From assembly GCA_021803885.1 (NCBI GenBank), contig JAJZKY010000004.1:1-23861 (forward strand): DNA of 23,861 bases, in the 5' to 3' direction. This document shows, in pieces, positions 4,176 through 17,805 of this stretch. Origin of the DNA: Planctomycetota bacterium (GTDB lineage Bacteria; Planctomycetota; Phycisphaerae; WQYP01; JAJZKY01). Position numbers and translations under genes: made by a program. The notes under the pieces are model-generated. The model was not told where the DNA came from, ran no database searches, and saw only the letters and a list, made by a program, of their open reading frames with translations. Positions within the stretch are counted from its first letter, which is position 1. Every line of letters begins with the position of its first letter.

Positions 4176-4202
4176 TTGAGCGGCTACGTCCCGCGATATA
4201 CT
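4176..4202 (+). promoter_or_regulatory. candidate promoter for phosphoesterase-HEAT-GTPase operon
   Basis: GATATACT places a good -10 hexamer (TATACT, 4197-4202). TTGAGC (4176-4181) is a possible -35 with a short 15-base spacer. Transcription would start near 4209, exactly where a 9-bp hairpin (4209-4232, one G-U pair) begins, just ahead of the riboswitch. Position relative to the riboswitch is the best support. Confidence 0.4.
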
Positions 4203-4233
4203 CAGGGTGTAGTTCCGTTGCAGCGGAATTACA

Positions 4234-4306
4234 GGGCGAAGGGGTTCGCCCCAACTACTGATCCATCCTTTGTGCCTGGACCTGGATGGGCAGATGATGA
4301 CCCCTG
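4234..4306 (+). ncRNA. fluoride (crcB-type) riboswitch aptamer, phosphoesterase operon
   Basis: The element begins with hairpin GGGCGA/TCGCCC (4234-4239 with 4246-4251) closing loop AGGGGT. A second stem follows: CTGATCCATCC (4258-4268) with GGATGGGCAG (4284-4293), one bulge. The 3' strand ATGATGACCCCT (4294-4305) can pair ACCCCT back to AGGGGT in the first loop, forming the pseudoknot that defines fluoride riboswitches. The GAUGACNCC signature agrees with the two other copies in the window. Expression platform: anti-Shine-Dalgarno at 4343-4351, annotated separately. Fluoride binding as the ligand is taken from the known family. Confidence 0.87.
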
Positions 4307-4342
4307 GTGAGTTTTCGCCGGGAGTTGCCTGCCCGGCCGGCT

Positions 4343-4404
4343 CGCCTCCATATTATGCGAATTTGCGCTTGATAGGCCCTGGCGGTGCTGTAACCATGGA
4401 GGCG
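4343..4404 (+). promoter_or_regulatory. anti-Shine-Dalgarno helix (expression platform)
   Basis: CGCCTCCAT (4343-4351) is perfectly complementary over 9 bases to ATGGAGGCG (4396-4404), which contains the only ribosome-binding site (GGAGG 4398-4402) of the phosphoesterase gene. GGTGAG (4306-4311), right after the aptamer, can pair with CTCGCC (4341-4346) and open that helix. A hairpin of 4302-4309 with 4316-4322 would instead occupy both GGTG and the pseudoknot strand. This gives a plausible translational ON switch; the mechanism is inferred. Confidence 0.6.
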
Positions 4405-4406
4405 CT

Positions 4407-5105
4407 GTGAAGATTGTCATCATCTCCGATATCCACGGAAATCTTGCCGCACTGGGCGCGCTTCCCGAGCGGGACTACGACGCGCTCTGGTGCATCGGCG
4501 ACCTGGTTGACTACGGGCCATGCCCGCACGAGGTGGTGCGGCAAATTCAAGCAAAGGCTGCCTTGTGCGTTCGCGGAAACCATGACAACGCGGCTGGGCT
4601 TTCGGTGGATCCGAACTGTTCGCCACCGTACAAACATCTGGCTGCAGAGACGCTGCGGTATACACAGCAAGTCTGCACCGAAGACGATGTGCTGTACCTG
4701 CGGAGTTTGCCGCTGCAATACCGGGTCATGACGGGCGGAGCGAAGTTCCATCTGGTCCATGCGATGCCCACGGATCCGCTCTTTGGCTACTGTCCGCAAG
4801 ACTCTGAGCTTTGGCGAGAGCAGGTGCGGGGCATCGATGCCGATGTACTGGTGGTGGGGCATACGCACACGCCATTTGTGCGGTTCGAGGACGGAACGGT
4901 CATCGTCAATCCGGGGAGTCTCGGCCAGCCGAAAACAGGCCGCCCGCAGGCCTGCTATGCGGTGTGGGAAGATGGGAAGATTTCTCTCAAGGAATACGAC
5001 TATCCGATTGACGAGACGATTCGCGGCATTCGAGGGATGCCGCTTGAAACGCATGATCAAGAGTCGCTGATCGCAGTGCTAAAGACCGGGAATCTGCCGG
5101 CCTGA
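4407..5105 (+). CDS. calcineurin-like metallophosphoesterase
   Basis: The 232-residue protein is a compact phosphodiesterase/phosphatase of the YfcE/MJ0936-like class. Metal-binding motifs are in order: DIH (D8, H10), GDLVDYG (D32), GNHD (N58, H59), H118, and GHTHTPF (H152, H154), followed by the conserved VNPGSLGQP. Start is GTG with GGAGG four bases upstream; a five-base-shifted mini-ORF (ATG 4396 to TGA 4410) overlaps it. It is the first gene of a (+) operon with a HEAT protein and a dynamin-like GTPase, under the riboswitch at 4234. Its substrate is unknown. Metal-dependent phosphatases are a class often inhibited by fluoride, so it may be a replacement or repair enzyme, but that is inference. 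Confidence 0.9.
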   Translation: MKIVIISDIHGNLAALGALPERDYDALWCIGDLVDYGPCPHEVVRQIQAKAALCVRGNHDNAAGLSVDPNCSPPYKHLAAETLRYTQQVCTEDDVLYLRSLPLQYRVMTGGAKFHLVHAMPTDPLFGYCPQDSELWREQVRGIDADVLVVGHTHTPFVRFEDGTVIVNPGSLGQPKTGRPQACYAVWEDGKISLKEYDYPIDETIRGIRGMPLETHDQESLIAVLKTGNLPA

Positions 5106-5168
5106 AGAGACTGGAATCGCCGGCCGGTACGCAACCGGGGCTGTGAGATTTGGAAGGGCAACAGAATC

Positions 5169-6122
5169 ATGAACAGTTCCCCATCTGCGACGCCTTCGAT
5201 CGAGCGGCTGGTGAGCCTGCTTGATTCGATGGTGGAAGGCGAGAGTGCTGTTGAACAACTTATCGCTCGCGGTCAACCGTCAGTTCCGTATCTCGAACGC
5301 TTTCTCCTGAGCTCGCCGCCAAGGTCGCTCGCGCTTCCGCGATGCCGCGCCGTGCGGGCGCTGGGAGAGCTTGGCGCTTATCCGGTATTGATCGCGTATT
5401 TCCGGTGCTACACGCGGCCTGACGACGCAGCCGTGCTTTTCGCCGAAGATGCCGTGCGAAGCGCGGCAGCTGAAGAACTTCTCCATTGCCGGGGCGAAGT
5501 TGTCTTTCCGGTGCTCCTCGACGCCGTTCGGCAACGCGCCACCGGCGGGTTGGTGCGCTCGCTAGGCGAGTTTCGGAGAGCGGAAGCAATTCCCGCGTTC
5601 TTCGAGCTGTTGGAGGACGATCTATGCCGGGAGGATGCAAAAGAGGCATTGCGAAAGAGCGCGGCGGCCGCGCATGCCTTTGCCGTGTTTTTGTTGCGTG
5701 GGCAGACAGCAGTCCCCTTTGCGGGGCCTGGCGCATCGCGCCGGCGGCGCGCGACGCTGCAACTGCTGGCGGAGTGGGGAGTGAGTGCGGCGGAGTGGCC
5801 GGAGTTGCGGGGATTTCTCTGGGATGACGACATGGATTGTGTGATTGCCGCTGCACGAGTCGGGATGCGCTTAGGTGAATCGCATCAGGAAGCGATTGCG
5901 GAGGCTTTGATCGAGGGCTCAGGAAGGATGAACTGGGCGCAGGAAACGGATGCTGTCGAGATGCTGGATTCGTGCGGTGAGATTGCGCGCGCTGTTGCAG
6001 CGAGAATTGCAGAGCACCGCAGGAGTCTTGGCGAAAAGCCGGAGTGGACTTCGCCATTTTGGCGAACTCTTCATCACCTGCTCGGAGGAAGTCTGCAAGC
6101 ACGGTTTGGCGGAGTTGCCTGA
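5169..6122 (+). CDS. HEAT-repeat-like helical protein
   Basis: The 317-residue protein has no catalytic motif that I recognise. It consists of successive amphipathic helix pairs with HEAT/PBS-lyase-like spacing: AVRALGELG near residue 60, AVRSAAAEELL near 97, LVRSLGEFRRAEAIPAFFELL near 130, and DAKEALRKSA near 160. These form a solenoid suited to protein binding. AAGGG lies about 12 bases before the ATG. It sits 63 bases after the phosphoesterase and about 30 bases before the GTPase gene, so one transcript is likely. A second, shorter HEAT protein follows the dynamin gene of the opposite operon (9943-10362), so a HEAT partner for each GTPase set may be part of the system. A scaffold or adaptor role is inferred. 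Confidence 0.75.
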   Translation: MNSSPSATPSIERLVSLLDSMVEGESAVEQLIARGQPSVPYLERFLLSSPPRSLALPRCRAVRALGELGAYPVLIAYFRCYTRPDDAAVLFAEDAVRSAAAEELLHCRGEVVFPVLLDAVRQRATGGLVRSLGEFRRAEAIPAFFELLEDDLCREDAKEALRKSAAAAHAFAVFLLRGQTAVPFAGPGASRRRRATLQLLAEWGVSAAEWPELRGFLWDDDMDCVIAAARVGMRLGESHQEAIAEALIEGSGRMNWAQETDAVEMLDSCGEIARAVAARIAEHRRSLGEKPEWTSPFWRTLHHLLGGSLQARFGGVA

Positions 6123-6152: not shown

Positions 6153-7847
6153 ATGGATCTGAAGCAGTACGAGCAAACAAAATTTGCGATGGCAGAGATT
6201 CTTCGCGCGGCTCAAGCCGTGGACACGAAGGATACCGGCCTGCAATCCAGTAGCCGCGATCTGCTTGCGCGTCTGGCGGACGACCGCTTCAATCTGATGG
6301 TTGTCGGGCGCTTCAATCGCGGCAAATCCACGCTGGTAAACGCTCTGCTGGGCGCGGCGCATCTGCCGACTGGAATCCTTCCACGCACGTCGGTGATCAC
6401 AACGGTACGATATGGCAGCCGGACGCAGGTTGTGCTGAACTTTGCCGGTTCGCGTCTGCGCCAGCCCGTGCCGCTTTCGCGCCTGCCCGAGTATGTGACG
6501 CAGCAATCGAATCCTGGCAACGTCAAGGGGGTGGAATGCGCGGAGATCGAACTGCCCGCCGAACTGCTGCGCCGCGGGCTCTTTTTCGTGGACAGCCCGG
6601 GGCTGGGATCGGCAATCGCCGCAAATACGCAGACGACGGAGCGATTCTTTCCCGAGGCGGACGCCTTTGTTCTGATCACGAGCTACGAAAGCCCGCTTTC
6701 CGAGGAGGAAGTTCGTGCGCTGAGGCGAATACGGGAAGCCGGCAAAGCGCTCTTTATCGCCGTGAACAAGCAGGATACGGCAGGAATGGAAGAGCGCAGC
6801 CAGGTCCTTGAATATGTGCAAATACGACTCAGCGAGTTCTCGTTTCCTCAAGAGCCGAAGATCTTCTCCATTTCGGCGCGTGAGGGCCTGGAAGGGAAAT
6901 TGATTCATAATGCGGATCTTGAGGCTCGGAGCGGCATTCCGCAGTTTGAAGAGGAGCTCTTGCGGTTTCTCACCGAGGAGCGCGCGGAAGCGTTCGTTCA
7001 AAATATGCGGCGGCGCACCGAGGATTTTCTTGCGCTGCGGCGGAACCTTGAAACCAAGGCAGAGAAGCGGGCGGCTTTCGAATCGCTATTGGAAAGGATG
7101 GGAGAGATCCAAGCAGAGTGCGGTCAGGGCGCGGCCGAGGCTCAACTTCAGACCGCGACAGCTCCGCGGCTCCAATTGGAGTTCGAGCAGCGCAGCGGAT
7201 GCACGATTTGCGGCGAGGTCCTGGATGCCGTGTTTCGCTTCCTGAGCAAGCACCAGTACGACTTGACGATTGACCGTGAAGTGCAGCGCGAACATGCCGC
7301 GCGGGGAGGATTCTGCTCTCTCCACACCTGGCAATATGAGAATCTCTCTTCGCCTTACGGCGTATGCGCGGCGTATCCGGTGCTGGCCCATCGCATCGCA
7401 GCCGATCTCCTGCAGGCCGCAAATGGAATGGCACGATTGGATGGAGATGGGGAAGAAGTTGACGGCTTGCTGGCATCGCCGGAAATATGCCGGGTATGTC
7501 AGGTCCGCATCGATGCCGAGCGGGAGGCTGTCAAACACGCCGCTGCTAAGGTGATTCAGGCAACAGGCTCCGCTGCTGGACGGCTGCCTGCATGCTGTCT
7601 GCCGCACCTCGCAATGACGCTGCGGACGCTGGACCGTGCGCAGCCCGCTGGACTACTGCTTCAGGCGCATTCCGAATTTCTCGAACGTCTGGCGGAGGAC
7701 GCGCAGCGCTACGCACTGCGGCACGATGCGCTGCGCCGGCATTTGACCAGCGAAGAAGAACGCCGCGCCGCGCAGCTTCTTTTGCTGATGCTGACAGGCC
7801 ACCGCAGCTTGTGCGCCCCGTGGCAGGTGGAGTGGATCGCCGGATAA
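6153..7847 (+). CDS. dynamin-like GTPase fused to tandem CxxC-CxxH modules
   Basis: The 564-residue protein has an N-terminal dynamin-family GTPase domain: P-loop GRFNRGKST (52-60), switch T79, DSPG (147-150) and NKQD (205-208). After residue 275 there is only a short helical connector, so the usual dynamin stalk with its membrane tip is missing. Instead comes a duplicated cysteine/histidine module: C350-C353 with C388-H391 (GFCSLH), and C446-C449 with C482-H485 (CLPH), then a helical tail. This pattern resembles DUF6062-type putative zinc-binding modules. The ATG at 6153 is chosen because upstream in-frame TTG 6123 and GTG 6144 would leave almost no gap to the HEAT gene; none has a strong ribosome site. 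The same module is free-standing at 13304-13869. It ends 18 bases from the converging ATPase gene. Confidence 0.88.
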   Translation: MDLKQYEQTKFAMAEILRAAQAVDTKDTGLQSSSRDLLARLADDRFNLMVVGRFNRGKSTLVNALLGAAHLPTGILPRTSVITTVRYGSRTQVVLNFAGSRLRQPVPLSRLPEYVTQQSNPGNVKGVECAEIELPAELLRRGLFFVDSPGLGSAIAANTQTTERFFPEADAFVLITSYESPLSEEEVRALRRIREAGKALFIAVNKQDTAGMEERSQVLEYVQIRLSEFSFPQEPKIFSISAREGLEGKLIHNADLEARSGIPQFEEELLRFLTEERAEAFVQNMRRRTEDFLALRRNLETKAEKRAAFESLLERMGEIQAECGQGAAEAQLQTATAPRLQLEFEQRSGCTICGEVLDAVFRFLSKHQYDLTIDREVQREHAARGGFCSLHTWQYENLSSPYGVCAAYPVLAHRIAADLLQAANGMARLDGDGEEVDGLLASPEICRVCQVRIDAEREAVKHAAAKVIQATGSAAGRLPACCLPHLAMTLRTLDRAQPAGLLLQAHSEFLERLAEDAQRYALRHDALRRHLTSEEERRAAQLLLLMLTGHRSLCAPWQVEWIAG

Positions 7848-7865: not shown

Positions 7866-8621
7866 TTATTCGCGGCGGCCCATGCGGTAATCGAGATAGA
7901 GGACATGGACTTTGATCTGGTCGCCGGCATGGTACCTGGGAAGGTGGGCCATTTTGATCATTTGTATAATGCTGCCCGGGTTGCCGTTGCTCCACTCAAC
8001 GAGCGAGCGCAGTACATCGTCAAGATTTGACGCCCATAGCGCGGTGCTTTGCGCTTCTCTCCGCGCGAATTCAAGGGCCACGGGCGGCAGGAAGTCCTTC
8101 AGCTCAAGCCGTTCCGAGCGTCCCGCGCACATGGGCTGCAAGGCGCCGATGTCTTCCATGTGCGGTGTGCGCGCTACAAAGATGACAGGCGTGCGATCGA
8201 AGTAATTCAAGTCCTTGATCAGGCCGGTAACCACGCGTGATGGTCCGGCCACGTGATCGAGAGCGATCAGGAATGATTCCTGTGCCAGCGCCCGTTGGAC
8301 GACGCCCTTCAGGGAGCCTGTGTTCAGAGAGGCAACGTCGGTAGGCAAGTTGATCCCCGGCCCTGCGAGCCGGCGCAGCTCCGCGATGAGCGACATCAGA
8401 ATATCGCGCGGCGATTGTGCCCTGGGCACGTGCAGGATGCGCGGTTGCGTCTTGACGAAGGCTTGGAGGAGTCGCGTCTTGCCTACGCCTTCCGGCCCGA
8501 AGATGAGGAGCGACTTTTGCCGCTGCGCCTGGGCAAGCAGCCGTGCCATCTCCTCCGACCTGTCCACGGCGGCAAGAAACTGCTGGGCATCGACGGCGCT
8601 GTTGAGACCCGTGCCGGGCAT
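7866..8621 (-). CDS. AAA/STAND-like P-loop ATPase
   Basis: The 251-residue protein carries Walker A GPEGVGKT (42-49) and Walker B FLIALD (117-122). A later FVARTPHMEDIG segment (148-159) carries an arginine where sensor or ORC/STAND ATPases have one. It resembles the ATPase core of AAA_16/NACHT-like switch proteins but lacks any added sensor or effector domain. The ATG is preceded by AAGGAG (8627-8632) with five-base spacing; this site overlaps the ppa stop codon, so translation is coupled to ppa. It is the second and last gene of the ppa unit and would share that unit's fluoride riboswitch. It may act as a regulatory or remodelling ATPase; partners are unknown. Confidence 0.75.
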   Translation of the reverse strand: MPGTGLNSAVDAQQFLAAVDRSEEMARLLAQAQRQKSLLIFGPEGVGKTRLLQAFVKTQPRILHVPRAQSPRDILMSLIAELRRLAGPGINLPTDVASLNTGSLKGVVQRALAQESFLIALDHVAGPSRVVTGLIKDLNYFDRTPVIFVARTPHMEDIGALQPMCAGRSERLELKDFLPPVALEFARREAQSTALWASNLDDVLRSLVEWSNGNPGSIIQMIKMAHLPRYHAGDQIKVHVLYLDYRMGRRE

Positions 8622-8630: not shown

Positions 8631-9164
8631 TTACGCTGCGACGGTCCTGCGCATAAACCTGTCGTGGCTCGACCGGATCACCTCGAACGCCGCGTCGCGA
8701 TCCTTCCAGCCGATCACCTTCGTCTGCTTCCCTTCGAGATCCTTGTACACGGAGAAGAAATGCTCGATCTCCAGCAGAATATGTTTCTGCACTTGTGTAT
8801 AAGAGTCGATCTCCCGGAATCGCGGATTGGCAGTCGCGTAGGAAAGAATCTTTTCGTCGCAAACGCCCTGGTCGAGCATCTCAAACAGGCCAATCGGCCT
8901 GGCGTTATACACGCAGCCGGGAAAGACAGGCGTATCGCCCAGCACGAGGATATCGAGAGGATCGTCGTCCTGAGCAATGGTTTGAGAAATAAATCCATAG
9001 TCGCCGGGAAAATGGACAGGGGAGTGCAGGGAACGGTCCAGTACGAAGACATTCAGATTGGGATCGTATTCGTATTTGTTGGTGCTGTCCTGTGGGACTT
9101 CGATGACTGCGGTTACAATTTCGGGCGATTTATTGCCAATGGGAAGTTCAAGATAACTATCCAT
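8631..9164 (-). CDS. ppa: inorganic pyrophosphatase, family I
   Basis: This cytoplasmic 177-residue enzyme hydrolyses pyrophosphate to two phosphates with Mg2+. Conserved elements are KYEYD, DYGFI, the metal-binding DDDPLDILV (three Asp in the D-x-D-P-x-D pattern), the LDQGVCDEK pair of Asp plus Lys, and VYKDLEGK. The start at 9164 has AAGGAG (9169-9174) four bases upstream; longer upstream frames run through the terminator and are rejected. Fluoride is a classical tight inhibitor of family I pyrophosphatases. Here the gene lies directly behind a fluoride riboswitch with an intrinsic terminator, so induction should supply fresh enzyme when fluoride enters the cell. It is co-transcribed with the ATPase gene nine bases downstream. 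Confidence 0.96.
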   Translation of the reverse strand: MDSYLELPIGNKSPEIVTAVIEVPQDSTNKYEYDPNLNVFVLDRSLHSPVHFPGDYGFISQTIAQDDDPLDILVLGDTPVFPGCVYNARPIGLFEMLDQGVCDEKILSYATANPRFREIDSYTQVQKHILLEIEHFFSVYKDLEGKQTKVIGWKDRDAAFEVIRSSHDRFMRRTVAA

Positions 9165-9195
9165 GAGGCTCCTTCGACCGCTGCGGCGCAAGAGC

Positions 9196-9224
9196 AAAAG
9201 AAAACCCCTGCGCGTAGCAGGAGT
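9196..9224 (-). terminator. intrinsic terminator / riboswitch expression platform before ppa
   Basis: On the minus strand ACTCCTGC (9224-9217) pairs with GCAGGGGT (9211-9204) across a 5-base loop, and is followed by TTTCTTTT (9203-9196). The 5' arm contains the bases (9222-9219) that the riboswitch needs for its pseudoknot, so the two folds exclude each other: a transcriptional ON switch for ppa. Confidence 0.92.
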
Positions 9225-9272
9225 CATCAGCCGGCCCATTTCGGGCGGCAATTAATGGCGGATTCCTTCGCC
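9214..9272 (-). ncRNA. fluoride (crcB-type) riboswitch aptamer, ppa
   Basis: The first hairpin is GGCGAAGGAATCCGCC (9272-9257; GGCG/CGCC stem). The second stem is GCCGCCC (9249-9243) with GGGCCGGC (9237-9230), one bulged C. The 3' strand CTGATGACTCCTGCTAC (9230-9214) matches the fluoride-riboswitch consensus end closely. TCCT (9222-9219) pairs with AGGA (9267-9264) in the first loop. The terminator that follows overlaps the pseudoknot strand, as in characterised fluoride ON switches. This is the clearest of the three copies in the window. Confidence 0.93.
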
Positions 9273-9278
9273 AATAAG

Positions 9279-9308
9279 AAGTTAGCACAGGTTCCAATCC
9301 TGCGGCAA
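9279..9308 (-). promoter_or_regulatory. candidate promoter for ppa unit
   Basis: TTGCCG (9308-9303) and TAACTT (9284-9279) are separated by 18 bases, and TG occurs in the extended -10 position. Transcription would start near 9272, the first base of the riboswitch. The hexamers are weak; placement gives most of the support. Confidence 0.4.
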
Positions 9309-9359: not shown

Positions 9360-9632
9360 TCAATCGCATCTGCGATAGGCCTCGGCGAGGTCCGGGAAGC
9401 GGAGAAGCCAGGGGGTGAGATCGACGATGTGGCTGCGTTCAAGTGCCGTGTGCAGCCTCTGATTTTTCAGGCCTCGGGACAGGATAGCGCGAATCACTTC
9501 CTCTTCATCCAGCATTTCAAAGCAGACATTGAAGGCTCCCTCGTTTGCGATGCGGTCACACATGACGGTAGCGATTGCGTAGCGAATGCGATAGGAGCGC
9601 GCGTCGGGATCATAGAGCTTGGGGCGGTACAT
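9360..9632 (-). CDS. small hypothetical protein, GTPase operon end
   Basis: I do not recognise this 90-residue protein. It begins MYRPKLYDPDARSYR and contains mixed helical segments (TVMCDRIANEGAFNVCFEML, then EEEVIRAILSRGL), ending FPDLAEAYRRCD. No signal peptide, membrane segment or metal motif is seen. The ATG at 9632 is preceded by GAGGTG with suitable spacing; the frame continues upstream to 9764 but that part overlaps the preceding gene. It is the last gene before the ppa promoter and riboswitch and probably the last of the enolase-dynamin operon. Its position implies a role with the GTPase system; nothing more can be supported. Confidence 0.65.
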   Translation of the reverse strand: MYRPKLYDPDARSYRIRYAIATVMCDRIANEGAFNVCFEMLDEEEVIRAILSRGLKNQRLHTALERSHIVDLTPWLLRFPDLAEAYRRCD

Positions 9633-9678
9633 CGACACCTCGGATTGAAGAACATCAACGCGCCACAGACGATTGGCA

Positions 9679-9942: not shown

Positions 9943-10362
9943 CTAAGAATGAGTCTCTCGAACGCTCGACTTCGCTTGCGGCATGAAGGTGCCCAGGCTC
10001 TTCTTTGCGGCCTCTGCGAGAAAGCGATTTTCGCCCAAACTGATCGTGCGGAGTATCGCAACCGAACGGGGATCACCGAGCGTCCCCAGGCTCTCCAGCG
10101 CGGCTTTGCGAACGAAAAGGTCCGGGTCTTCTTCAGCTAAGCTGATCAAGTCTGGCACCGCATGGCGAATCTGATTTTCGCCAATCAGCCAGCAGATCCG
10201 CACCCTTGCTTCCGGCAAAGGATGCGCGAGCGCTCCGAGCAACTTTTCTTCGTACGTCCGATGGTCCAGCGTTAAATCTGCCTCACAACCGGGGCACACT
10301 TTGTCTTCTGATTTCACCTCACGCCAGCAACGGGTACAGTAGGCAATCATGTCGTAAGACAT
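9943..10362 (-). CDS. zinc-ribbon plus HEAT-repeat protein
   Basis: The 139-residue protein opens with a compact zinc ribbon, C9-x2-C12 and C23-x2-C26 (YCTRCWREV, VCPGCEADL). Two or three HEAT repeats follow (LLGALAHPLPEARVRICWLI; AVPDLISLAEEDPDLFVRKA; SVAILRTISLGENRFLAEAA). ATG 10362 has AAGGTG about seven bases upstream. It follows the dynamin gene by 18 bases. Zinc-ribbon-HEAT fusions act as small adaptor modules; no enzymatic residue is present. Together with the larger HEAT protein at 5169-6122 it suggests that helical-repeat adaptors accompany the GTPases. The in-frame continuation past its TAG stop into the next small gene is noted under findings. Confidence 0.82.
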   Translation of the reverse strand: MSYDMIAYCTRCWREVKSEDKVCPGCEADLTLDHRTYEEKLLGALAHPLPEARVRICWLIGENQIRHAVPDLISLAEEDPDLFVRKAALESLGTLGDPRSVAILRTISLGENRFLAEAAKKSLGTFMPQAKSSVRETHS

Positions 10363-10380: not shown

Positions 10381-12147
10381 TTACACAAGCGTCGAAAGCT
10401 CTTGTTCAAATGAGTTGAGCCGTTCAATCGCCGCCTGCACGGCGGGAGTGCCTTCTTCTTTGACTTTGCGCGCCCGGTCAAGTGCCTGTTCGGCAATGCG
10501 GCTGATCTCATGCAGCAGCTTGCGGATTTCAACCTCCAGGTGGCCACGACTTTCCTGAATACGATTGAAGACGTCATTTTGTACGCGCGCGCTGTTCACT
10601 TCCAGCAGATAATACAGAAACTCGCGCGCTTCATTGGTGATGAGTTTGCGCCCACCCACAAACGGCAAGAAAACGTCGGCGATCCAGCGCAGCGGCGACG
10701 GCGGTTGCGCAGTTCCGATGAAGTCCTCAAAAGTGAACCGGGAGCGCACGCGGAAGCCCTTTTCCGGATCGAGCGCATGCGGCATACGCGTCAGTTCGCT
10801 GAGGCCCGCATCGGCAAGCTTCTTCAGAAAGTTGTTTCCCATCTCCACGAAGCGAAGGGCCACGGCGCGATATTGGCGCTCGCCCTCTTCCTGCTCAGGT
10901 TTGAGCCAGGGCAAAACCTTATGGCGTGAAACGTCCTGGGCCAGACGCATCAGCCGGCGCCGATCATGGGGGCCAAAGCCGAGTTGTGTGGTGCGTAGCT
11001 CCTCAATAAACGCGGCTTGAGATTCTGTCCACGCGGAGCGGAAGAACCACCGGCGTCTTTCCAGGAAAAGATTGGAAATCCGCTGCTGCTCCGCCATGAA
11101 CAGGAAGTTCAGCTCGCGCATGGAGCGTTCGGCCTCGCTGATGGTTTCCTTCATCAGCGCAATGCGTCGCTCGGATTCTTCGATGGGCCTTTGCAACGCG
11201 TCGCGGTCCTCGCTGATGATGGCCAGCAGCTGTTCGCTGAGGCGCTGCAGGCCACGGCCGCAAGCGGCACGAACCAGATTTCTGCCGGAGTCTTCAACGA
11301 GGTGATGCAAACCTGCCAGCAGCTTTTCCCAATCCCGCAAGGGACCGCGGTTTTCCATTCGTTCGGCGGCGCTCACCTCAAAGACCTCGCCCATCGGGCG
11401 ATGCAGGCGCTTCTCCAGCATCTCACGGGTGAACTTGACTGCGGCTGCGCGCTCCGCATCGGTGGTGCGATCGGCCTTGTTGATAATCAGAATCAAGTCC
11501 TGAACCTGCTTGCCGACTGCCTCCACCAGTGCCAACTCTTCGCCCGCAATTGGCGGATCGGCTCCGACGACAACCAACGCCGCATCGATGTGCGGAATGA
11601 ACGCCTGTGTCGTTGCTGTGTTTCCACCAAAGACCGAGCCCAGGCCCGGCGTATCCACGAAACACATACCCGAAGACAACAAGGGGCTGGGCGCGAATAC
11701 TTCTGCGCCGTCCACGCCGTTTCTGTTTTCGGGGTTCAGTTCTTCGGTCACGTATTTCTTCAGGTCGCGCATGGCAATATCTCGCCAGGATCCGTCGCGC
11801 ATACGAACGCGCGCCTGAAGTCTGTCGCCAAAACGAATCACGGTTGGCACCGCCGTAACCGGAACAAAGCCGGTCGGTACCACTTCATGACCGACGAGAG
11901 CATTGAGCAAAGTGGATTTGCCGCGCTTAAACTGGCCGACACAAGCCACATAGAAACGGCCTTCGGAAACCCGTGCTGCCAGTTCCCGCGCTTCTTCGGC
12001 GACAGGCTCAGCTCCAAGCTCCGCAGCTAGATCGGCAAGCCGCATCAGACGCGAGGCGCCATCCACGGATGCGGATGTCTCCGTGGGAAGGCTGTCGTAA
12101 TCCTGCGCCGATTCGCTCATTTCGCAACCCCCTGGATCGGAGTTCAT
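10381..12147 (-). CDS. dynamin-like GTPase (588 aa)
   Basis: This is a full-length bacterial dynamin-like protein. It has P-loop GQFKRGKST (71-79), DTPG (165-168), NKAD (223-226), then a long helical region with alternating heptad-like segments that should form the neck and trunk. A hydrophobic patch near residue 490 (PLRWIADVFLPFVGG) is a possible membrane-contact paddle, and a terminal coiled coil returns toward the GTPase. Such proteins bend, fuse or protect membranes using GTP. The start ATG 12147 shares its A with the TGA stop of the DUF190 gene (TGATG), with GGGAGAG upstream, so the two are translationally coupled. An in-frame ATG at 12120 with AGGGGG is an alternative. It is the second GTPase of the minus-strand operon. 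Confidence 0.92.
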   Translation of the reverse strand: MNSDPGGCEMSESAQDYDSLPTETSASVDGASRLMRLADLAAELGAEPVAEEARELAARVSEGRFYVACVGQFKRGKSTLLNALVGHEVVPTGFVPVTAVPTVIRFGDRLQARVRMRDGSWRDIAMRDLKKYVTEELNPENRNGVDGAEVFAPSPLLSSGMCFVDTPGLGSVFGGNTATTQAFIPHIDAALVVVGADPPIAGEELALVEAVGKQVQDLILIINKADRTTDAERAAAVKFTREMLEKRLHRPMGEVFEVSAAERMENRGPLRDWEKLLAGLHHLVEDSGRNLVRAACGRGLQRLSEQLLAIISEDRDALQRPIEESERRIALMKETISEAERSMRELNFLFMAEQQRISNLFLERRRWFFRSAWTESQAAFIEELRTTQLGFGPHDRRRLMRLAQDVSRHKVLPWLKPEQEEGERQYRAVALRFVEMGNNFLKKLADAGLSELTRMPHALDPEKGFRVRSRFTFEDFIGTAQPPSPLRWIADVFLPFVGGRKLITNEAREFLYYLLEVNSARVQNDVFNRIQESRGHLEVEIRKLLHEISRIAEQALDRARKVKEEGTPAVQAAIERLNSFEQELSTLV

Positions 12148-12515
12148 CACGCTCTCCCGGAAGCGGTGTCCTGTTCCTTGCCGGCGGCCCGTGAGTAGCG
12201 GATTACCTCTACGCGCGACATTGCAATCAGGCCCTCTTCGATCATCTCGTCGAGATGCGGGATGAGCTTTGCGATCTGTTCTTCCTTATCGATGATGCTG
12301 AGCATGATCGGGGCATCTTTCGAAAGCTTCCAATGGCTGGCGTGCCGGATCCGGGTGCTGGTTCCATAGCCTTCGATGCCTTTGTAGACGATAGCTCCGG
12401 CCAAACCCAATTCCTGGCACTTGGCCAGGATCGCCTCGTGCAGCGGCGCTCCGTGCCAGGTGTCTGCTTCGCCGAAGTGAATACGCAGCATGTTTGCCTG
12501 AAACTGCTCTTTCAT
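12147..12515 (-). CDS. DUF190 (COG1993) protein
   Basis: The 122-residue protein is a single DUF190 domain with the characteristic LRIHFGEADTWHGAPLHEAI start, GAIVYKGIEGYG centre, DAPIMLSIIDKEE strand and GLIAMSRVEVIRY end. DUF190 proteins are small PII-like ferredoxin-fold proteins of unknown biochemistry that are frequently encoded beside crcB fluoride channels. ATG 12515 has GGAGG (12521-12525 region) at good spacing. The gene follows the tandem DUF190 gene by 27 bases and overlaps the dynamin start by one base. It could sense a ligand and control the GTPase, but that is inference from architecture and context. Confidence 0.93.
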   Translation of the reverse strand: MKEQFQANMLRIHFGEADTWHGAPLHEAILAKCQELGLAGAIVYKGIEGYGTSTRIRHASHWKLSKDAPIMLSIIDKEEQIAKLIPHLDEMIEEGLIAMSRVEVIRYSRAAGKEQDTASGRA

Positions 12516-12542: not shown

Positions 12543-13292
12543 TTACGCAGGTTCACCCGTCGTTGATCTCTGTGCCTCGCCTTCCTCTATCTGCATTGGG
12601 CGATACGAATACTTGATGATGTCTACATCCGACAGCACAACCAGGCCCTCCTCCACCATCTGTTCGACGATCGGAAGGAACGCCTTGAGCTTTTCCTCGC
12701 TGTCGATCACCGAGAGCATCACGGAGGAATCGTGCGAGAGGTGCAGCGCCTTGTCTCTGTGTACGCGGCGATGCGCTCCGTAGCCGAGAATCCCGCGATA
12801 GACCGTAACTCCCGCGATATCGTTGGCTCGCATGGCTTCGACCAAAGCGATGTGAAGCGGCTTGTCGCGCCAGCGGTCCGCTTCTCCGATGTAAATCCGC
12901 ATTAGCCTCGCCTTGCCCTCGATCTTGAGATGCGAGGGCGGCATTGTTTTCTTTGGCTTTGAGGCCTGAGCCGGCTTGGCCACCATGGTTTCCTGCACTT
13001 CGATCATCCCGGTGCCGGCCAGCTCCTCCAGCTTTCCAAGAAGCTCATTCACCTTTTCGGGAGTCTCGATGAATTCGATTTTGACGGGCATGCGGTCGGA
13101 GATCTCGACGCCGCTGGCCGTGTGCATGTGATGATCCGCCCCGAACCCGGCCACACCCCTCAGGACCGTAGCGCCGGAAACGCGGCGATAGAGCAGAAAA
13201 TCCAGGATGCTCGAATATGCGGGAACTCCGTGGCGCGTTGCTCCTTCGCTGACGTAGATGGAAACTTTGAGCGCTTTTCCAGCTTTCAACAT
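12543..13292 (-). CDS. tandem DUF190 (COG1993) protein
   Basis: The 249-residue product contains two DUF190 domains. The first spans about residues 6-105 (VSIYVSEGATRHGVPAYSSI, TVLRGVAGFG, MPVKIEFIETPEK). A Lys/Pro-rich linker follows, then the second domain at about 128-230 (MRIYIGEADRWRDKPLHIAL, TVYRGILGYG, SSVMLSVIDSEEK). The second is closer to the single-domain protein next door. ATG 13292 is preceded by AAGGGAGAAGAAG; an in-frame extension to 13430 has no ribosome site and runs into the gene upstream. It lies 11 bases after the Cys-rich gene. With the neighbour it gives three DUF190 domains in one operon, enough for a trimer-like assembly if these behave as PII relatives. Confidence 0.93.
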   Translation of the reverse strand: MLKAGKALKVSIYVSEGATRHGVPAYSSILDFLLYRRVSGATVLRGVAGFGADHHMHTASGVEISDRMPVKIEFIETPEKVNELLGKLEELAGTGMIEVQETMVAKPAQASKPKKTMPPSHLKIEGKARLMRIYIGEADRWRDKPLHIALVEAMRANDIAGVTVYRGILGYGAHRRVHRDKALHLSHDSSVMLSVIDSEEKLKAFLPIVEQMVEEGLVVLSDVDIIKYSYRPMQIEEGEAQRSTTGEPA

Positions 13293-13303: not shown

Positions 13304-13869
13304 TTATGTCTTGAGCCCTTGCTGGGCCACCAGAAATTCTGCCGCGCGGCCAAGGGCGCCCCAACCAGCGCGGTCCGGTCCCGGCTTGCTGCGAAGCTGA
13401 CTCAGTTCTACCGTCAGCCGCTGACGGCAACGAATAATGATGCCATCAATCCGTGGCGTCAGGGCAAGCGGAACCTTGTTGCGCAACTTCATCGCGTGAG
13501 GCACGCACAAAACCACGTCCAATCGCAGCCGATGCAAAACTTCCGCACGCTCAATACTACTTACAAATTCCCGCATTCGCAGTTGTTCTTCCGCCGCAAC
13601 CTCGCTACAAATGCCGCATTCGGAAGTTCCGTTTGACGCCGCGGCCGCATTATTCACCAGCTTCATAGAGGCTTCCGCCGCGGCCGGCGCATCCTGAACT
13701 GCGGCCAACCCCCAAGCATGAAAGCTGCACAGCCGGTGAAGCTCGCCCCCCGAATGATACTGGAGCCGAAGCGTCTAAACTCTTTCAGAAACCGGCAAAA
13801 CGGACACCCGGGCTCATGCAGGGTCTGAAGGATCGGGTGATAGACCACGAGTTGACGATGTGTTCTCAC
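13304..13869 (-). pseudogene. free-standing tandem CxxC-CxxH module protein, frameshifted
   Basis: Two overlapping minus-strand frames together encode one protein of about 188 residues. The first frame, from GTG 13869 (AGGGGT upstream), carries CPFC. The second carries LCSFH, then CGIC and LCVPH, and ends at 13304. The frames join if the run of six G (13746-13751 on the plus strand as C) had seven, giving CPFC-x22-CSFH-...-CGIC-x33-CVPH. The arrangement and the helical tail match the C-terminal half of the GTPase at 6153-7847. The defect may be a sequencing or assembly error, a true mutation, or a slippery site used for programmed frameshifting. It lies in a tight operon between the 711-aa GTPase and the tandem DUF190 gene. 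Confidence 0.8.
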
Positions 13870-13917
13870 GAGAATACACCCCTGTCACAAGAGAATCGCT
13901 CCGCAATGCTCCTCTTT

Positions 13918-16053
13918 TCACGTTCTTTGTTGTGCCTCGTCGTGCGATTCGGTCGCAAGCCTGTGCATTAGATGATCGAGATCGCGTTCAATTTCGGCGG
14001 AACTAACGGAATTCCCGGTTGCTCCACAAATCCGGTTGAGCTGCGCGCGGTAGTCATCGGCATAGGAGTTGATCATTGTTTCGAGCTTGCGAGACACCTG
14101 CTCGTTCCACAGCCGCAGGACCTGCTCATAACGATGCAACCTCTCCGTAAGCAGTGGGCCGATCCTCTGGCCCAGGGCGCTTTTCACAATTGCGAACAGA
14201 AGCTTGCGGCCCAGCCATTTCCAGTGCTCTGGATGTATTTCCACGGGCGGATCGCCAAGCTCAAATCGTGGTGCGTCGCGCAAGAACCCTTCGGCATCCT
14301 CCAGCGAAGGCACATCAGATCGGGACATCTCCAGGCCGATCTTCTGCAACATTTCAACCGCGTCCCTGGCTGACGATCGAGCATCTCCAAGAAGCCGATC
14401 GACACGCTCCTGCACCACCCGGTTGGCCCATTCAGAAAGACTGGCTCGATCAAGTGCGCCGTCCTTATTTGCAGAAATCCGTTCAGTGACCACATCCGCC
14501 AAAGCCTGCACGACAACTGCAGGACGTTCGGCAAGCTCCAGGAAACCGCGATCGAGAATCGTTCGTTGCTCCCCAATGCGGCCGCTGATCTGACGCAGGC
14601 GTTCTTCGATGCCGGTTGCATCCTGTTCGGTCATCGCTGTCTTTCGCCGATGCAGTTGATCGAGTGACGTTTGCAGAGCAGAGATGACCGATTCGCGAAG
14701 GGCCCCAACCTTGCGGGCGACAGAGGATTCACGCAAGCTACGCCCCTGATCGAAACGAGGAAGCATCTCGCGCTCGAAAAAGCTGTCGAGAAGCGCGGAG
14801 CGCTGCGGTAACGTGCTCACGGGATGTACGTCGATCTTTAACCCGAGATTCTGCTCAATCTGGCTCTCAATATAGGCAGCCACGCGATAGAGATCCTGAT
14901 TGTGCAGCAGGTCCGCTTTGCTGAGCAACAGCAGAGCGGGGATTCCGGCTTCGTAGAGCAGACGTAAGGTGCCGAGATCTTCCTCGTTGAGTGCGGTGCC
15001 CGCATCGATCAATAGGAGCGCCAGATCGCACGCCGGCAGATAGGCCATCGTTTCGGCTGCGCCTCGCTGGGCAAGTGAGCCGAGCCCTGGCGTATCAACT
15101 AGCGCGATGCCTTGCCTGAGCCGCGGTGAAGGGACTTCAACGACTGCGCGCACCACATTGCGCTGGTTGCCCGGATTGCCTTCCTCCGTAATCAGGCTGC
15201 GGAAATCCGCGACGGTGACGAGCTCATCCGTACCGCTGCCAAATGCCACTGTCGCGCGCAGTTCCGATCCGTAGCGGAGTTTCGTCGGTACAGCCGTGAT
15301 CGGATTCACGCCCACAGGAAGAACATCTGTTCCGAGTAGCGCGTTCAGCAGCGAGGACTTTCCGCTGTTCACGCGTCCGAAGAGCGCCACTTCCAGGTTG
15401 TTTTCCGCAAGGCGCGAGGCAAGTGAGGCAATACGCGGCCGGAACTCGACCAGGCCGTGCCGGGTGACGATCTCCTCGATCTCTCGAATCAGCCTCACAT
15501 CGTGCCCCGCCTTTTCCAACTGCTGCAGGCGCGCTTGGAGGTTCGCTCCAAATTCCTGGCGGATGTAGCGCTCCATGCCTTGGACGACGGAACGCAATTC
15601 ATGCACCACGCCGTTCAATTCGTCCGCGGCATTTTCCAAAACAGCTCCGGACCCGCGCATGTAGCTGGGCTTGAGCTCCTCAATAGCGATGTCGACAAAC
15701 GCCAGATGCGAAAGGATGGCGCGCGTGGCGGGAATATCGGGCGGATCGGGATGCAGGCCCTGCCATGCCAGGGCGCGCAAGAGCTGCTCGCGAACCCGGC
15801 GAATATAGTCCTCCAGCACCCGGGTTTGAGCGGGCGTCACATTGACAACATGGCGCGGAAATGGAGATTTCGATGCAGCCTCGTGCAGAATCCGCTCAAC
15901 ATCGCCAAGCAGCTTGTCGATGTGCTGGCAGGTTATGCTCAGCCGCCGCTGTTGAGCCTCGTTCAATTGGCCCGTCGGTTGCATTTTGCTCATCTCCACC
16001 AGCCGTCTGGAGATGGCTCCTCCCGCTGTATGTCCAGAGGAGCCATCGTTCAT
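13918..16053 (-). CDS. large dynamin-like GTPase (711 aa)
   Basis: The protein has a helical N-terminal region of about 215 residues, rich in heptad-like segments, then a dynamin-type GTPase domain: P-loop GRVNSGKSS (226-234), DTPG (320-323) and SKAD (378-381, in place of NKxD). A long helical trunk follows to the C-terminus, including HPEHWKWLGRKLLFAIVKSA, a possible membrane-contact segment. Such a helix-GTPase-helix order is that of full-length bacterial dynamin-like proteins. The ATG at 16053 is only weakly supported by AAGGGAA some 14 bases upstream; ATG 15993 or 15984 behind GGTGGAG are alternatives. It follows enolase by 34 bases and is followed by the Cys-rich gene after 48. It may pair with the 588-aa GTPase, as bacterial dynamins often work in pairs. 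Confidence 0.92.
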   Translation of the reverse strand: MNDGSSGHTAGGAISRRLVEMSKMQPTGQLNEAQQRRLSITCQHIDKLLGDVERILHEAASKSPFPRHVVNVTPAQTRVLEDYIRRVREQLLRALAWQGLHPDPPDIPATRAILSHLAFVDIAIEELKPSYMRGSGAVLENAADELNGVVHELRSVVQGMERYIRQEFGANLQARLQQLEKAGHDVRLIREIEEIVTRHGLVEFRPRIASLASRLAENNLEVALFGRVNSGKSSLLNALLGTDVLPVGVNPITAVPTKLRYGSELRATVAFGSGTDELVTVADFRSLITEEGNPGNQRNVVRAVVEVPSPRLRQGIALVDTPGLGSLAQRGAAETMAYLPACDLALLLIDAGTALNEEDLGTLRLLYEAGIPALLLLSKADLLHNQDLYRVAAYIESQIEQNLGLKIDVHPVSTLPQRSALLDSFFEREMLPRFDQGRSLRESSVARKVGALRESVISALQTSLDQLHRRKTAMTEQDATGIEERLRQISGRIGEQRTILDRGFLELAERPAVVVQALADVVTERISANKDGALDRASLSEWANRVVQERVDRLLGDARSSARDAVEMLQKIGLEMSRSDVPSLEDAEGFLRDAPRFELGDPPVEIHPEHWKWLGRKLLFAIVKSALGQRIGPLLTERLHRYEQVLRLWNEQVSRKLETMINSYADDYRAQLNRICGATGNSVSSAEIERDLDHLMHRLATESHDEAQQRT

Positions 16054-16087
16054 TGAACCGGCAAGCTTCCCTTCAACTGCAGGTACA

Positions 16088-17392
16088 TTACGCTTTCACG
16101 GGCTTCTTCCAGCGGTCATAGATGCTGGCGCCCGCGTAACGAGCCTTGCTCCCCAGCTCACGCTCGATTTCGAGCAGGCGGTTGTACTTCGCAATGCGCT
16201 CGCCGCGGCAGGCCGAGCCGGTTTTGATCTGTCCCATTCCGGCCGCAACCGCCAGGTCCGCGATGCTGGTGTCGTCTGTCTCTCCCGAGCGGTGCGAGAT
16301 CACCGCGCCATAGCCGTTCTCGCGCGCCATCTGAATGCAATCGAGCGTCTCAGTCACGGTGCCGATCTGGTTCAGCTTGATCAGAATGGCATTGGCAACC
16401 CCGTTCTTGATGCCCTGACGGAAAAGCGCTGGATTGGTCACAAAATTGTCGTCCCCGACAAGCTGAATCTGATTTCCCAACTCAGCCGTGATCTGTTTCC
16501 AGCCGGCGGCATCGTCTTCGGCCACGCCGTCTTCAAGCGACCAGATCTCCGGATACTTCTTGAGCCAGCTCTGCCAAAGTGCAACCAGTTCTGCCGGGCT
16601 CTTCTTGCTCTTATCCGACTTGGCAAAGACGTAATTGCCTTCGTCGAAGAATTCGCTGGCTGCCGGATCGAGCATGATCACGATGTCTTTGCCCGGCTTG
16701 TAGCCCGCCTTCTGGATGGCTTCGAGGATCAATTCGATTGGCTCCTCGTTCGACTTCAACTGCGGAGCAAATCCGCCCTCGTCGCCAACGGCCGTGCTGT
16801 AACCCTTCTTGTGCAGCACGGCTTGCAGGGAATGAAATGTCTCGGCGGCCGCGCGCAGCGCCTCGCTGAAAGACGGAGCGCCTACAGGCGAGATCATGAA
16901 CTCCTGGAAGTCCACGTTGCTGTCGGCATGTTTGCCGCCATTCAGCACATTGAGGCCCGGAGTGGGCAACAGGTTGGCGGGCCGATCCACGATGGCCGCA
17001 TAAAGCGGAACTCCACGGTCCTTCGCCGTGGCATGGGCTGCCGCGAGCGATACGCCGAGGATCGCATTGGCGCCCAACCGGCCCTTGTTTGGTGTTCCGT
17101 CCAGTTCGCAGAGTCGCTTGTCCAAAGCCTTTTGGTCATTGGCGTCCATCCCGCGAACGGCGCCCTGAATTTCCCTTTCGACATGGCTCTTCGCCTTCAA
17201 TACGCCCTTGCCGCCATAGCGTGATTTGTCTCCATCACGGAGTTCAACCGCTTCGCGCTTGCCGGTCGAGGCGCCGGAGGGAACCTTTGCGGTCGCGGCG
17301 ACGCCGTTCGCAAGAGTGACAGTTACAGCGAGCGTGGGATTCCCACGCGAATCTAGAATCTCAAGTGCATCGAGCTTGGCAATTTCAGACAT
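16088..17392 (-). CDS. eno: enolase (divergent copy)
   Basis: This 434-residue enzyme converts 2-phosphoglycerate to phosphoenolpyruvate in glycolysis. Catalytic features are present: SGASTG loop, [33 protein letters not shown], the catalytic Lys in [17 protein letters not shown] and QIKTG. Several near-invariant positions differ from standard enolases: SGETDDT for SGETEDT, CRGER for CRSER, LEDG for IEDG. It may therefore be a second, specialised enolase and not the housekeeping one. Enolase is the textbook fluoride target, and this gene sits behind a fluoride riboswitch. The ATG has only a weak GGGAAAGTG site. It heads the minus-strand operon with two dynamin-like GTPases and DUF190 genes. 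Confidence 0.96.
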
Positions 17393-17698
17393 AGAAGTTC
17401 ACTTTCCCGGCTCATGCGGCCGAAAGGCTTGAAGCAAATGCAATGATTGCGACTGGAAGAGAGGACGTGCGAAGAGGGCGCGATCCGTTCAGGTATGATT
17501 TCTTATCCGGTTGTATCGCGAGCAAGGCGAGGGGGTTCGTTCGTGGCGCCGGAGCGCGCAGCAAGCCGTATGGCCATCGCGCGGCCGCAGCGAATCCGAT
17601 ACACAAAGTCAACAGATGCCAGGGATCTACCATGGAATCTCAATCCAACTTGTGATAGGGAATCGCGCCGCAGAGGTAGCTCCGTAACAGGATTCCCT
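17393..17698 (-). other. long eno 5' leader without gene
   Basis: About 300 bases separate the riboswitch from enolase. Next to the aptamer, AGGGAATC (17698-17691) can pair with GATTCCCT (17664-17657), enclosing a nested CTCC...GGAG/ACAGG...CCTGT alternative that begins in the aptamer's 3' strand. This may be the expression platform, but no T-run is visible. The remainder contains one 73-codon open frame (17633-17412) that I do not trust. Confidence 0.5.
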
Positions 17699-17762
17699 GT
17701 CAGGAGTCATTATCTGTCCTGCCTCTCGGATGGGACAGCGGTTAAAGGTGAACTCCCTCACC
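17699..17762 (-). ncRNA. fluoride (crcB-type) riboswitch aptamer, eno operon
   Basis: The first hairpin is GGTGAGGGAGTTCACC (17762-17747), stem GGTGA/TCACC. TTTAACCG follows, then stem CTGTCC (17738-17733) with GGACAG (17719-17714). The 3' strand ATAATGACTCCTGAC (17713-17699) pairs ACTCC back to GGAGT in the first loop (17756-17752). Order, spacing and the conserved AACCG and ATGACTCC segments fit the fluoride riboswitch. A promoter lies directly upstream (17778-17805), putting the aptamer at the very 5' end of the enolase operon transcript. Confidence 0.88.
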
Positions 17763-17777
17763 CCAACAACCTCTCAG

Positions 17778-17805
17778 TAGATACCGGAATTTGATGGGGT
17801 GTCAA
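17778..17805 (-). promoter_or_regulatory. candidate promoter for eno operon
   Basis: A perfect TTGACA (17805-17800) is followed after 16 bases by TATCTA (17783-17778). Predicted transcription start is near 17771, nine bases before the riboswitch begins. Confidence 0.55.

Follow-up and report, generated by a model that had tools for sequence, protein, structure and literature searches.

Three dynamin-like GTPases in a probable fluoride-riboswitch regulon, and recurrence of the riboswitch-dynamin pairing across Acidobacteriota

In a stretch of 23,861 nucleotides from a genome deposited as Planctomycetota bacterium (the window: assembly GCA_021803885.1, contig JAJZKY010000004.1, positions 1 to 23,861), three genes for dynamin-like GTPases stand among genes for enolase, inorganic pyrophosphatase and DUF190 proteins, which raises the question of whether these genes form one fluoride-responsive system and what the GTPases would do in it. 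An initial annotation, made from the sequence alone, had proposed that every transcription unit is led by a fluoride-type riboswitch and that the GTPases might repair or seal membranes against hydrogen fluoride (HF) or respond to metal-fluoride mimics. The reading favoured here is that the window holds a fluoride-switched regulon whose three GTPases act, beside enolase and pyrophosphatase, to keep the membrane intact and tight under fluoride stress; taken as a whole, it has about an even chance of being right. Regulation by fluoride riboswitches is very probable from the sequence evidence, and membrane maintenance by the GTPases is an evenly balanced proposition.

The two converging gene groups of the initial annotation, one on each strand, were confirmed and split into three riboswitch-led units (Table 1). 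Unit A, on the plus strand, runs from its aptamer through genes for a YfcE-type phosphoesterase and a HEAT protein to GTPase 1. On the minus strand, unit B consists of an aptamer followed by genes for enolase, GTPase 3, a CxxC/CxxH protein, a double and a single DUF190 protein, GTPase 2 and a HEAT-zinc protein, and unit C of an aptamer, pyrophosphatase and a P-loop ATPase. Each unit is predicted to form a single transcript; between positions 4100 and 18000, 0 sigma-70-like promoter sites were detected, compared with 4.4 in shuffled sequences. Pfam and NCBIfam searches agreed with the gene content first described (three Dynamin_N GTPases, three DUF190 domains, enolase, pyrophosphatase, ATPase, phosphoesterase and HEAT proteins), and the duplicated CxxC-CxxH modules were located twice in GTPase 1 and twice in 13304-13870. 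No crcB was found among the window open reading frames (ORFs), CLC-type exporters not having been searched for.

With the Rfam fluoride covariance model (RF01734, gathering score 34 bits), matches were obtained at all three leaders, two of them over the cut-off (41.9 bits in unit C and 35.3 bits in unit B) and the third, in unit A, weak; a complete lack of matches, which the initial annotation had named as grounds for dropping its claim, did not occur. The unit A aptamer retains P1 and a GGGGU/ACCCC pseudoknot, both strands of which are altered relative to the commoner GGAGU/ACUCC. At 11 loci, spread over 10 related genomes, the phosphoesterase gene is likewise preceded by such an aptamer, and all nine P1 and pseudoknot pairs (9/9) are kept in these 12 leaders, the window included. 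On these sequence grounds it was taken as a real, diverged fluoride aptamer.

Across 28 aligned aptamers, 91.5% of the P1, P3 and pseudoknot cells were paired and 30 cells had changed on both sides, with 0 of 500 shuffles as high for either count, and slid-partner controls of the same alignment reached at most 56.6% pairing. Two other counts fell within the shuffle range, namely pairs changed on both sides (5; 174/500) and further pair types (10; 378/500). The two strong leaders folded better than shuffled sequences (z = -3.3 and -2.8), and the unit A leader was not clearly above them (z = -1.6, equalled by 13 of 200 shuffles). The bare core motif was weak evidence, with 3 matches against 0.83 expected, a number reached in 4 of 100 shuffles. 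A weak Ms_IGR-2 match in the window was set aside as chance.

In the pyrophosphatase (ppa) leader, the 3' strand of the pseudoknot also forms the 5' side of a hairpin with a T-run behind it, an overlap of aptamer and terminator-like hairpin that is the usual on-switch layout and that is kept in relatives with the arms changing in step. The enolase (eno) and phosphoesterase leaders showed no T-run within the stretch examined. As terminator-like sites were not enriched over the whole window (14, compared with 13.6 in shuffles), the switch argument rests on position and conservation. Among 119 distinct aptamers, 70 of them listed individually, a T-run was present in the examined stretch for 42, and 41 of these had three or more of the six pseudoknot-strand bases paired when folded, some of the hairpins being weak; the other 77 had no T-run there. 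In two relatives (L127, L014), the sequence of the GTPase 3 leader would instead allow the pseudoknot strand to pair with a GGAGGAG immediately preceding the ATG of GTPase 3, an arrangement that would control translation.

The association of riboswitch and dynamin was then quantified across the phylum. An even draw of 80 Acidobacteriota genomes was searched separately for GTPase 3, RF01734 and any Dynamin_N protein, the phylum label, that of the window included, being taken from names (the relatives are Acidobacteriaceae and the like; the GTPase of G029, a genome drawn from the same phylum as the window's near-identical counterpart G001, has a source named Acidobacteria bacterium) and "directly upstream" meaning on the same strand within up to 700 bases. 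GTPase 3-like dynamins occurred in 16 genomes and riboswitches in 26. A riboswitch lay within 6 kb of the dynamin gene in 15 of the 16, directly upstream in 10, and in the exception (G082) the dynamin gene begins at a contig end. Riboswitches were found in 11 of the 64 genomes without a GTPase 3-like dynamin compared with 15 of the 16 with one (Fisher p = 1.6e-8). A GTPase 2-type query of 386 Acidobacteriota genomes, with only three candidates scored per genome, matched 38, including the same 16. All 22 additional dynamin genomes had a riboswitch, over the cut-off in 21, within 6 kb in 20 and directly upstream in 16. Combined, a riboswitch was present within 6 kb in 35 of 38 dynamin genomes and directly upstream of the dynamin in 26. 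One fluoride-regulated system with dynamin-like GTPases as its new component, as first proposed, is thus strongly supported at the sequence level by the model matches, the recurrence of the gene set and this linkage.

In the 80-genome draw, the Dynamin_N search gave 23 matches at E <=4e-20, of which 19 lay on contigs with a riboswitch nearby; the remaining four were on two contigs (G082:C108, G096:C105) whose first dynamin gene stands at the contig start. Five weaker, more distant dynamins (G093, G055:C81, G067, G041, G080) were on contigs that gave no RF01734 match in the survey of the draw, and had no riboswitch in the fetched stretches of 3-7 kb. In a 42-row dynamin tree, 2 changes sufficed for the linked/unlinked label (shuffled mean 8.3; 0 of 500 shuffles as low), the two G096:C105 rows being scored as unlinked, near copies being included and the deep forks being weak. 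GTPases 1, 2 and 3 each belonged to well-supported groups, and L153, labelled GTPase 2 by the search, fell on the GTPase 3 side. A single origin of the riboswitch-linked label is neither shown nor excluded by this tree.

A genome scan based on GTPase 2 only reached 30 loci, all but one (L032) in metagenome-assembled genomes (MAGs) with acidobacterial labels. At least one match to a model built from the 28 aptamers was found in 23 of them, a count that leans towards a match, as contigs of some of these loci fed the model. With the Rfam model, at least one aptamer passed the cut-off in 23 of the 25 genomes reached through GTPase 2, and a single genome gave as many as 14 matches at E <=0.01. The L032 locus (JARLJM010000080.1, genome G106, a MAG labelled Parasulfuritortus) encodes a protein or fragment that is, over its length, 86% identical to GTPase 2, and is probably a mis-binned acidobacterial contig.

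Several relatives possessed, whole or largely, the order riboswitch, enolase, riboswitch, GTPase 3, crcB, DUF190 genes and GTPase 2, with a CxxC/CxxH protein encoded before the DUF190 genes, and in other genomes crcB, a DUF190 gene or GTPase 3 was missing. In the window the full order is kept, minus crcB and minus the second aptamer; in the genome near-identical to it across the regulon (G001), crcB is on a separate contig behind its own weak aptamer (25.2 bits, Rfam). The gene set recurs with riboswitches, eno and ppa, and loci lacking both, which had been named as counter-evidence, were not encountered save single ones such as G732. Of 102 distinct genes standing first after an aptamer in the islands fetched by GTPase 2 or riboswitch matches, which are not an unbiased survey, the most frequent were ppa (16) and GTPase 3 (16), followed by the phosphoesterase (12); 43 fell under other genes, and three aptamers had no gene within 600 bases.

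GTPase 3 is truncated or missing beside an intact GTPase 2 in the eroded loci L012, L015, L018 and L030, which suggests that certain lineages are losing the system. Proteins with MutS domain V recur in riboswitch islands, some as adjacent pairs (L105 17584-19119, L103 15656-17200, L118 9617-12831, L141 10696-12285). Riboswitch-led units also contained, or lay next to, gene clusters for membrane subunits of NADH dehydrogenase/Mrp type and for 49/30-kDa-like subunits (L158, L160, L163, L104 348-9250), which probably form proton or ion pumps.

Concerning the proteins themselves, Dynamin_N was over the Pfam cut-off in all three GTPases (E 6e-27 to 2e-23), with intact G1 and G4 motifs and a DTPG G3 motif, replaced by DSPG in GTPase 1. 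In Foldseek searches, predicted models of GTPases 2 and 3 matched IniA and Nostoc BDLP over most of their length, including the neck and trunk helical bundles, so that for both a complete bacterial dynamin-like fold is predicted; the common G domain was held to account for further matches to EF-Tu, EngB and Era. The two modules of GTPase 1 (C350/C353/C388/H391 and C446/C449/C482/H485) were each conserved in no fewer than 21 of the 22 aligned rows, a part of which come from overlapping loci. The CxxC/CxxH protein of unit B (ORFY, 13304-13870) proved by hhalign to be a homologue of the C-terminal part of GTPase 1 (probability 87, E 3.9e-6) and also carries two modules, the first split over two frames and the ORF 13304-13708 containing CGIC and CVPH; 16 distinct homologous ORFs of relatives (189-332 amino acids) have both modules in a single frame. 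The split lies near a G run at about 13745-13751, and the ORF listed for G001 is likewise 134 amino acids long, relatives having one ORF; judging from the sequence, it may be a frameshift or a sequencing error. Homologues of the P-loop ATPase adjoin dynamins in three genomes (G099, G508, G627), DUF190 gives a weak P-II score in Pfam, and the metallophosphoesterase was placed in the YfcE type by NCBIfam TIGR00040.

What the GTPases may do was approached from the effects of fluoride and from their relatives. According to the available parts of a 2024 review, HF permeates the membrane and dissociates inside, as the main route of fluoride entry, enolase and pyrophosphatase are fluoride-inhibited and often riboswitch-controlled, and fluoride alters membrane structure and integrity (PMC11139923). 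DynA forms clusters in response to nisin and presumably moves to damaged membrane (PMC8844932), while the trunk tip of IniA binds lipid and the protein cuts membrane in vitro (PMC6715688); both are described in the accessible text of these sources as protecting stressed membranes. In seven related genomes, the GTPase 1 operon has a cyclopropane-fatty-acid synthase gene inserted after the phosphoesterase gene and before the HEAT gene, identified by Pfam in one genome and as ORFs 60-62% identical to it in the six others. Lipids with cyclopropane fatty acids lower the permeability of membranes to acid. The membrane effects of HF, the model matches of GTPases 2 and 3 to IniA and BDLP, the roles of DynA and IniA and the presence of this synthase in the GTPase 1 operon together make membrane maintenance the preferred function. 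SAM synthetase genes were also seen near fluoride riboswitches (L103 14082-15251; L179 6920) and could feed the cyclopropane-fatty-acid synthase of the islands.

Under the favoured reading, HF would cross the membrane and free F- and H+ inside the cell, F- would be bound by the aptamers and expression would be released. Extra enolase and pyrophosphatase would relieve fluoride inhibition and CrcB, encoded on the other contig in G001 and within the locus in several relatives, would export F-. The GTPases would assemble on the stressed membrane and tether, fuse or resculpt it, GTPases 2 and 3 perhaps working as a heterotypic pair, under regulation by the DUF190, HEAT, CxxC/CxxH and ATPase proteins.

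A number of observations weigh against this reading. Concerning the riboswitches, the unit A aptamer is under the Rfam cut-off (20.0 bits, E 0.0026 in a 381-base search) and invariant across its own 12-leader set, which for lack of variation gives no covariation support by itself, and fluoride induction of the units is inferred from the similarity of their RNA to known aptamers. Riboswitch matches were absent from 7 of the 30 GTPase 2 loci, in five of which the gene lies within 200 bases of the contig start, and from 2 of the 25 genomes reached via GTPase 2. Among the dynamin genomes, G666 has its riboswitch on another contig, its 4.8-kb dynamin contig carrying DUF190, enolase and dynamin genes, and the 8.5-kb dynamin contig of G732 holds no recognised fluoride gene. 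In G567 and G669, which are among the 35 linked genomes, the nearby Rfam matches are not upstream of the dynamin; a more sensitive model gave weak upstream matches (22.9 and 22.0 bits), and the GTPase of G669 is interrupted by stops. With three candidates scored per genome, no match was found in 348 of the 386 genomes, including three of the same genus (G033, G595, G769), so that the system is accessory. As for the membrane, none of the three GTPases has a transmembrane-like segment and the trunk tip of the GTPase 2 model (about 441-490) is of low confidence, so that lipid contact is assumed, and neither the window nor five further phosphoesterase-bearing loci have the cyclopropane-fatty-acid synthase.

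Among the alternative explanations, the one that survives best, while unlikely, is that the CrcB channel is regulated or organised by its neighbours, with PII-like DUF190 proteins gating it and the GTPases clustering it or placing it in the membrane. The position of crcB between GTPase 3 and the CxxC/DUF190 genes in several Acidobacteriaceae relatives, the order riboswitch, GTPase, crcB, DUF190 in L151 and the weak P-II score all favour it, as does the statement of the 2024 review that a natural regulator of fluoride channels has yet to be identified (PMC11139923). A CrcB match was nevertheless absent from 12 of the 38 dynamin genomes, including G545, G104 and G631, which are 96-100% complete (CLC-type exporters not having been searched for), which argues that the GTPases are not simply CrcB helpers; moreover, in L154, L155, L157, L161 and L162 a riboswitch immediately precedes the dynamin gene, and the stretch fetched around it contains no crcB.

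It is improbable that the GTPases serve as sensors of fluoride, GDP with MgF3- or AlF4- mimicking the transition state and locking the GTPase domains into dimers, which would cause assembly or drain fluoride-metal complexes. Their intact G1, G3 and G4 motifs are compatible with such trapping, which is possible for any Ras-like GTPase and so leaves the choice of dynamins unexplained; crystals of Cj-DLP grown with GDP.AlF4 lacked AlF4 density, according to the accessible portion of that study (PMC6104087). Similarly low odds attach to a more specific proposal, that dedicated acidobacterial fluoride dynamins, induced by the riboswitch and locked by GDP-magnesium-fluoride, reseal or wall off the membrane where HF enters and form an exporter-independent second defence that is also carried on conjugative plasmids.

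A passive association, in which riboswitch operons gather general stress genes and the dynamins answer a different stress, for instance acid or phage, is improbable as well. The islands do also contain MutS-like, MFS, SAM synthetase and complex I-like genes, protection from phage is described for DynA (PMC8844932, in part), and weak PADLOC matches to LeoA were obtained; yet 26 of the 38 genomes have a riboswitch directly before the dynamin, in many cases without a further fluoride gene adjoining, which suggests selection for fluoride control of the dynamin gene. Chance co-location of ordinary genes with riboswitch-like leaders, to which the one leader under the Rfam cut-off might be held to point, was rejected as next to impossible from the pairing of the 28 aptamers, a simple proximity null of about 10^-33 over 15 genomes (with G001 entered with three aptamers, its listing having two) and replication in 20 of 22 further genomes.

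Membrane maintenance within a fluoride regulon was also set against known systems. The window shares with the fluoride (crcB) riboswitch regulon RF01734 the aptamer, pseudoknot, terminator overlap and downstream eno and ppa, an association described in the available parts of PMC11139923, and differs in adding dynamin-like GTPases, HEAT and CxxC/CxxH proteins and in having no crcB, the exporter gene that follows the riboswitch in crcB-type resistance operons. In the FRM operon of Enterobacter cloacae (ppaC, uspA, eno, gpmA, crcB, orf5249), riboswitch-led eno and pyrophosphatase are shared with the window; as far as the accessible text goes, none of its six genes encodes a GTPase and its pyrophosphatase is manganese-dependent, unlike the PF00719 enzyme of the window (PMC5533749). 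The window in turn has DUF190 genes and no crcB, and neither uspA nor gpmA was found by Pfam among its 19 scanned proteins.

Among dynamin-like proteins, IniA (6j72, 6j73) was the best Foldseek match of the GTPase 2 and 3 models, through neck and trunk, at 16-20% identity. Partial matches were obtained with the LeoABC models (LeoA 36-61 bits, LeoBC 17-26 bits), and membership in DynA (NF052648) was rejected, the GTPases scoring 61.2, 60.7 and 42 bits against an NCBIfam cut-off of 1600. The Campylobacter Cj-DLP1/DLP2 pair (5owv) and Nostoc BDLP (2j69) were also matched at the sequence level; to our knowledge, no riboswitch context is known for either. In Campylobacter, a heterotypic pair is encoded in one operon (PMC6104087, in part), as predicted for GTPases 3 and 2, whose pair formation may be supposed by analogy. 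IniA is drug-induced and membrane-acting, with no fluoride link in the available text (PMC6715688), and Bacillus DynA has in common with the window GTPases the dynamin domains and perhaps also the membrane surveillance that the accessible parts of PMC8844932 describe for it; unlike DynA, they are not fused double dynamins.

Outside Acidobacteriota, plasmid records were opened for two of the three Burkholderia with a match, Lichenicola and Anabaena. The Burkholderia plasmids (L141, L142) each carried four aptamers over the cut-off, one of which leads an ORF and a dynamin gene, and their islands also contained two pyrophosphatases, enolase, two DUF190, MutS-like and complex I-like genes; the B. 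cenocepacia plasmid was typed as conjugative. The ORF before the dynamin has CxxC-like motifs and was not homologous to the CxxC/CxxH protein of the window (profile comparison E 0.11). On the Lichenicola plasmid an aptamer leads crcB, with a GTPase 1 relative divergent from this pair. In the tree, the Burkholderia dynamins were placed next to GTPase 3 (98/96) and the Lichenicola one with GTPase 1 (100/100). No aptamer was found in the stretches looked at around the dynamin pair of the Anabaena plasmid. Two draws of genomes around G106 yielded no convincing member: a draw of 299 genomes, made without a positive control, gave 0 matches, and a draw of 398 genomes gave 1 match, G106 itself, both with at most three candidates scored per genome, so that distant members may be missed. 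Further members are listed under Bradymonadales, Deltaproteobacteria and Planctomycetota, by database protein names only. Judging from the plasmid copies, transfer of the trait from one phylum to another seems possible.

The features of the regulon are collected in Table 1. Between the HEAT-zinc gene and the ppa aptamer, an ORF (9360-9764) gave no Pfam match, and its homologues in relatives vary in frame and length. Past the regulon, the region 17935-23657 encodes a GH28 glycosidase, a 2OG-Fe(II) oxygenase, a RidA-like protein and an IS110-family transposase (22596-23657).

Table 1. Positions, strands and supporting matches of the regulon features in the window.
Feature	Position	Strand	Evidence
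Fluoride riboswitch aptamer, unit A leader	4226..4313	+	RF01734 20.0 bits (weak); 42.8 bits with model R1, whose training set included this aptamer
YfcE-family metallophosphoesterase	4407..5105	+	Pfam Metallophos_2 E 7.5e-23; NCBIfam TIGR00040 over cut-off
HEAT-repeat protein	5169..6122	+	Pfam HEAT_2 E 9e-6 (just under cut-off), HEAT_PBS E 7e-5 (over cut-off)
Dynamin-like GTPase 1, two C-terminal CxxC/CxxH modules	6153..7847 (ORF open from 6123)	+	Dynamin_N E 2e-23
P-loop (AAA/STAND-like) ATPase	7866..8621	-	Pfam ATPase_2 E 3.6e-7; best Pfam models below cut-off
Inorganic pyrophosphatase	8631..9167	-	Pfam PF00719 E 2.9e-52
Terminator-like hairpin and T-run	9203..9225	-	5' arm is the aptamer pseudoknot strand; same layout in ppa leaders of relatives
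Fluoride riboswitch aptamer, unit C leader (ppa-ATPase)	9211..9281	-	RF01734 41.9 bits, E 1.2e-8
HEAT protein, zinc-ribbon-like motif N-terminal	9943..10362	-	Pfam HEAT_2 E 1.1e-13; DZR E 7.6e-4, below cut-off
Dynamin-like GTPase 2	10381..12120 (ORF open from 12150)	-	Pfam Dynamin_N
DUF190 (PII-like) protein	12147..12515	-	Pfam DUF190 E 5e-33
Double DUF190 protein	12543..13292 (start assigned to ATG at 13292; ORF open from 13430)	-	Pfam DUF190 E 1.3e-59, two stretches
CxxC/CxxH module protein ORFY	13304..13870	-	CPFC in one frame; CSFH, CGIC, CVPH in another
Dynamin-like GTPase 3	13918..16053	-	Pfam Dynamin_N
Enolase	16088..17392	-	Pfam Enolase_C E 6e-115
Fluoride riboswitch aptamer, unit B leader (enolase to HEAT-zinc protein)	17694..17771	-	RF01734 35.3 bits, E 1.7e-6

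Fluoride defence as known consists mainly of export, pH balance and overproduction of the inhibited enzymes. The parts of the present system are all of known kinds, and what appears new is their combination, a family of dynamins that are, as a rule throughout the phylum, controlled by fluoride riboswitches. No report linking a fluoride riboswitch to a dynamin was found in the literature searched, which did not extend to the tables of the 2012 riboswitch-gene paper or to most subscription papers; the available excerpts of PMC9331176 and PMC7266159 hold nothing on GTPases. As the pairing of riboswitch and dynamin recurs across Acidobacteriota, these GTPases are likely an overlooked part of bacterial fluoride survival, and a dynamin family tied to fluoride riboswitches throughout a phylum would add membrane remodelling as a further arm of defence. 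Proteins of this kind number in the thousands (3417 GTPase 3-like and 4459 GTPase 2-like at E <=1e-10, in sets that may overlap, with the 120 best of each listed and gene context not part of the count), and they would gain a testable physiological trigger. Dynamins with a natural chemical inducer would thereby offer a means to study why bacteria need dynamins.

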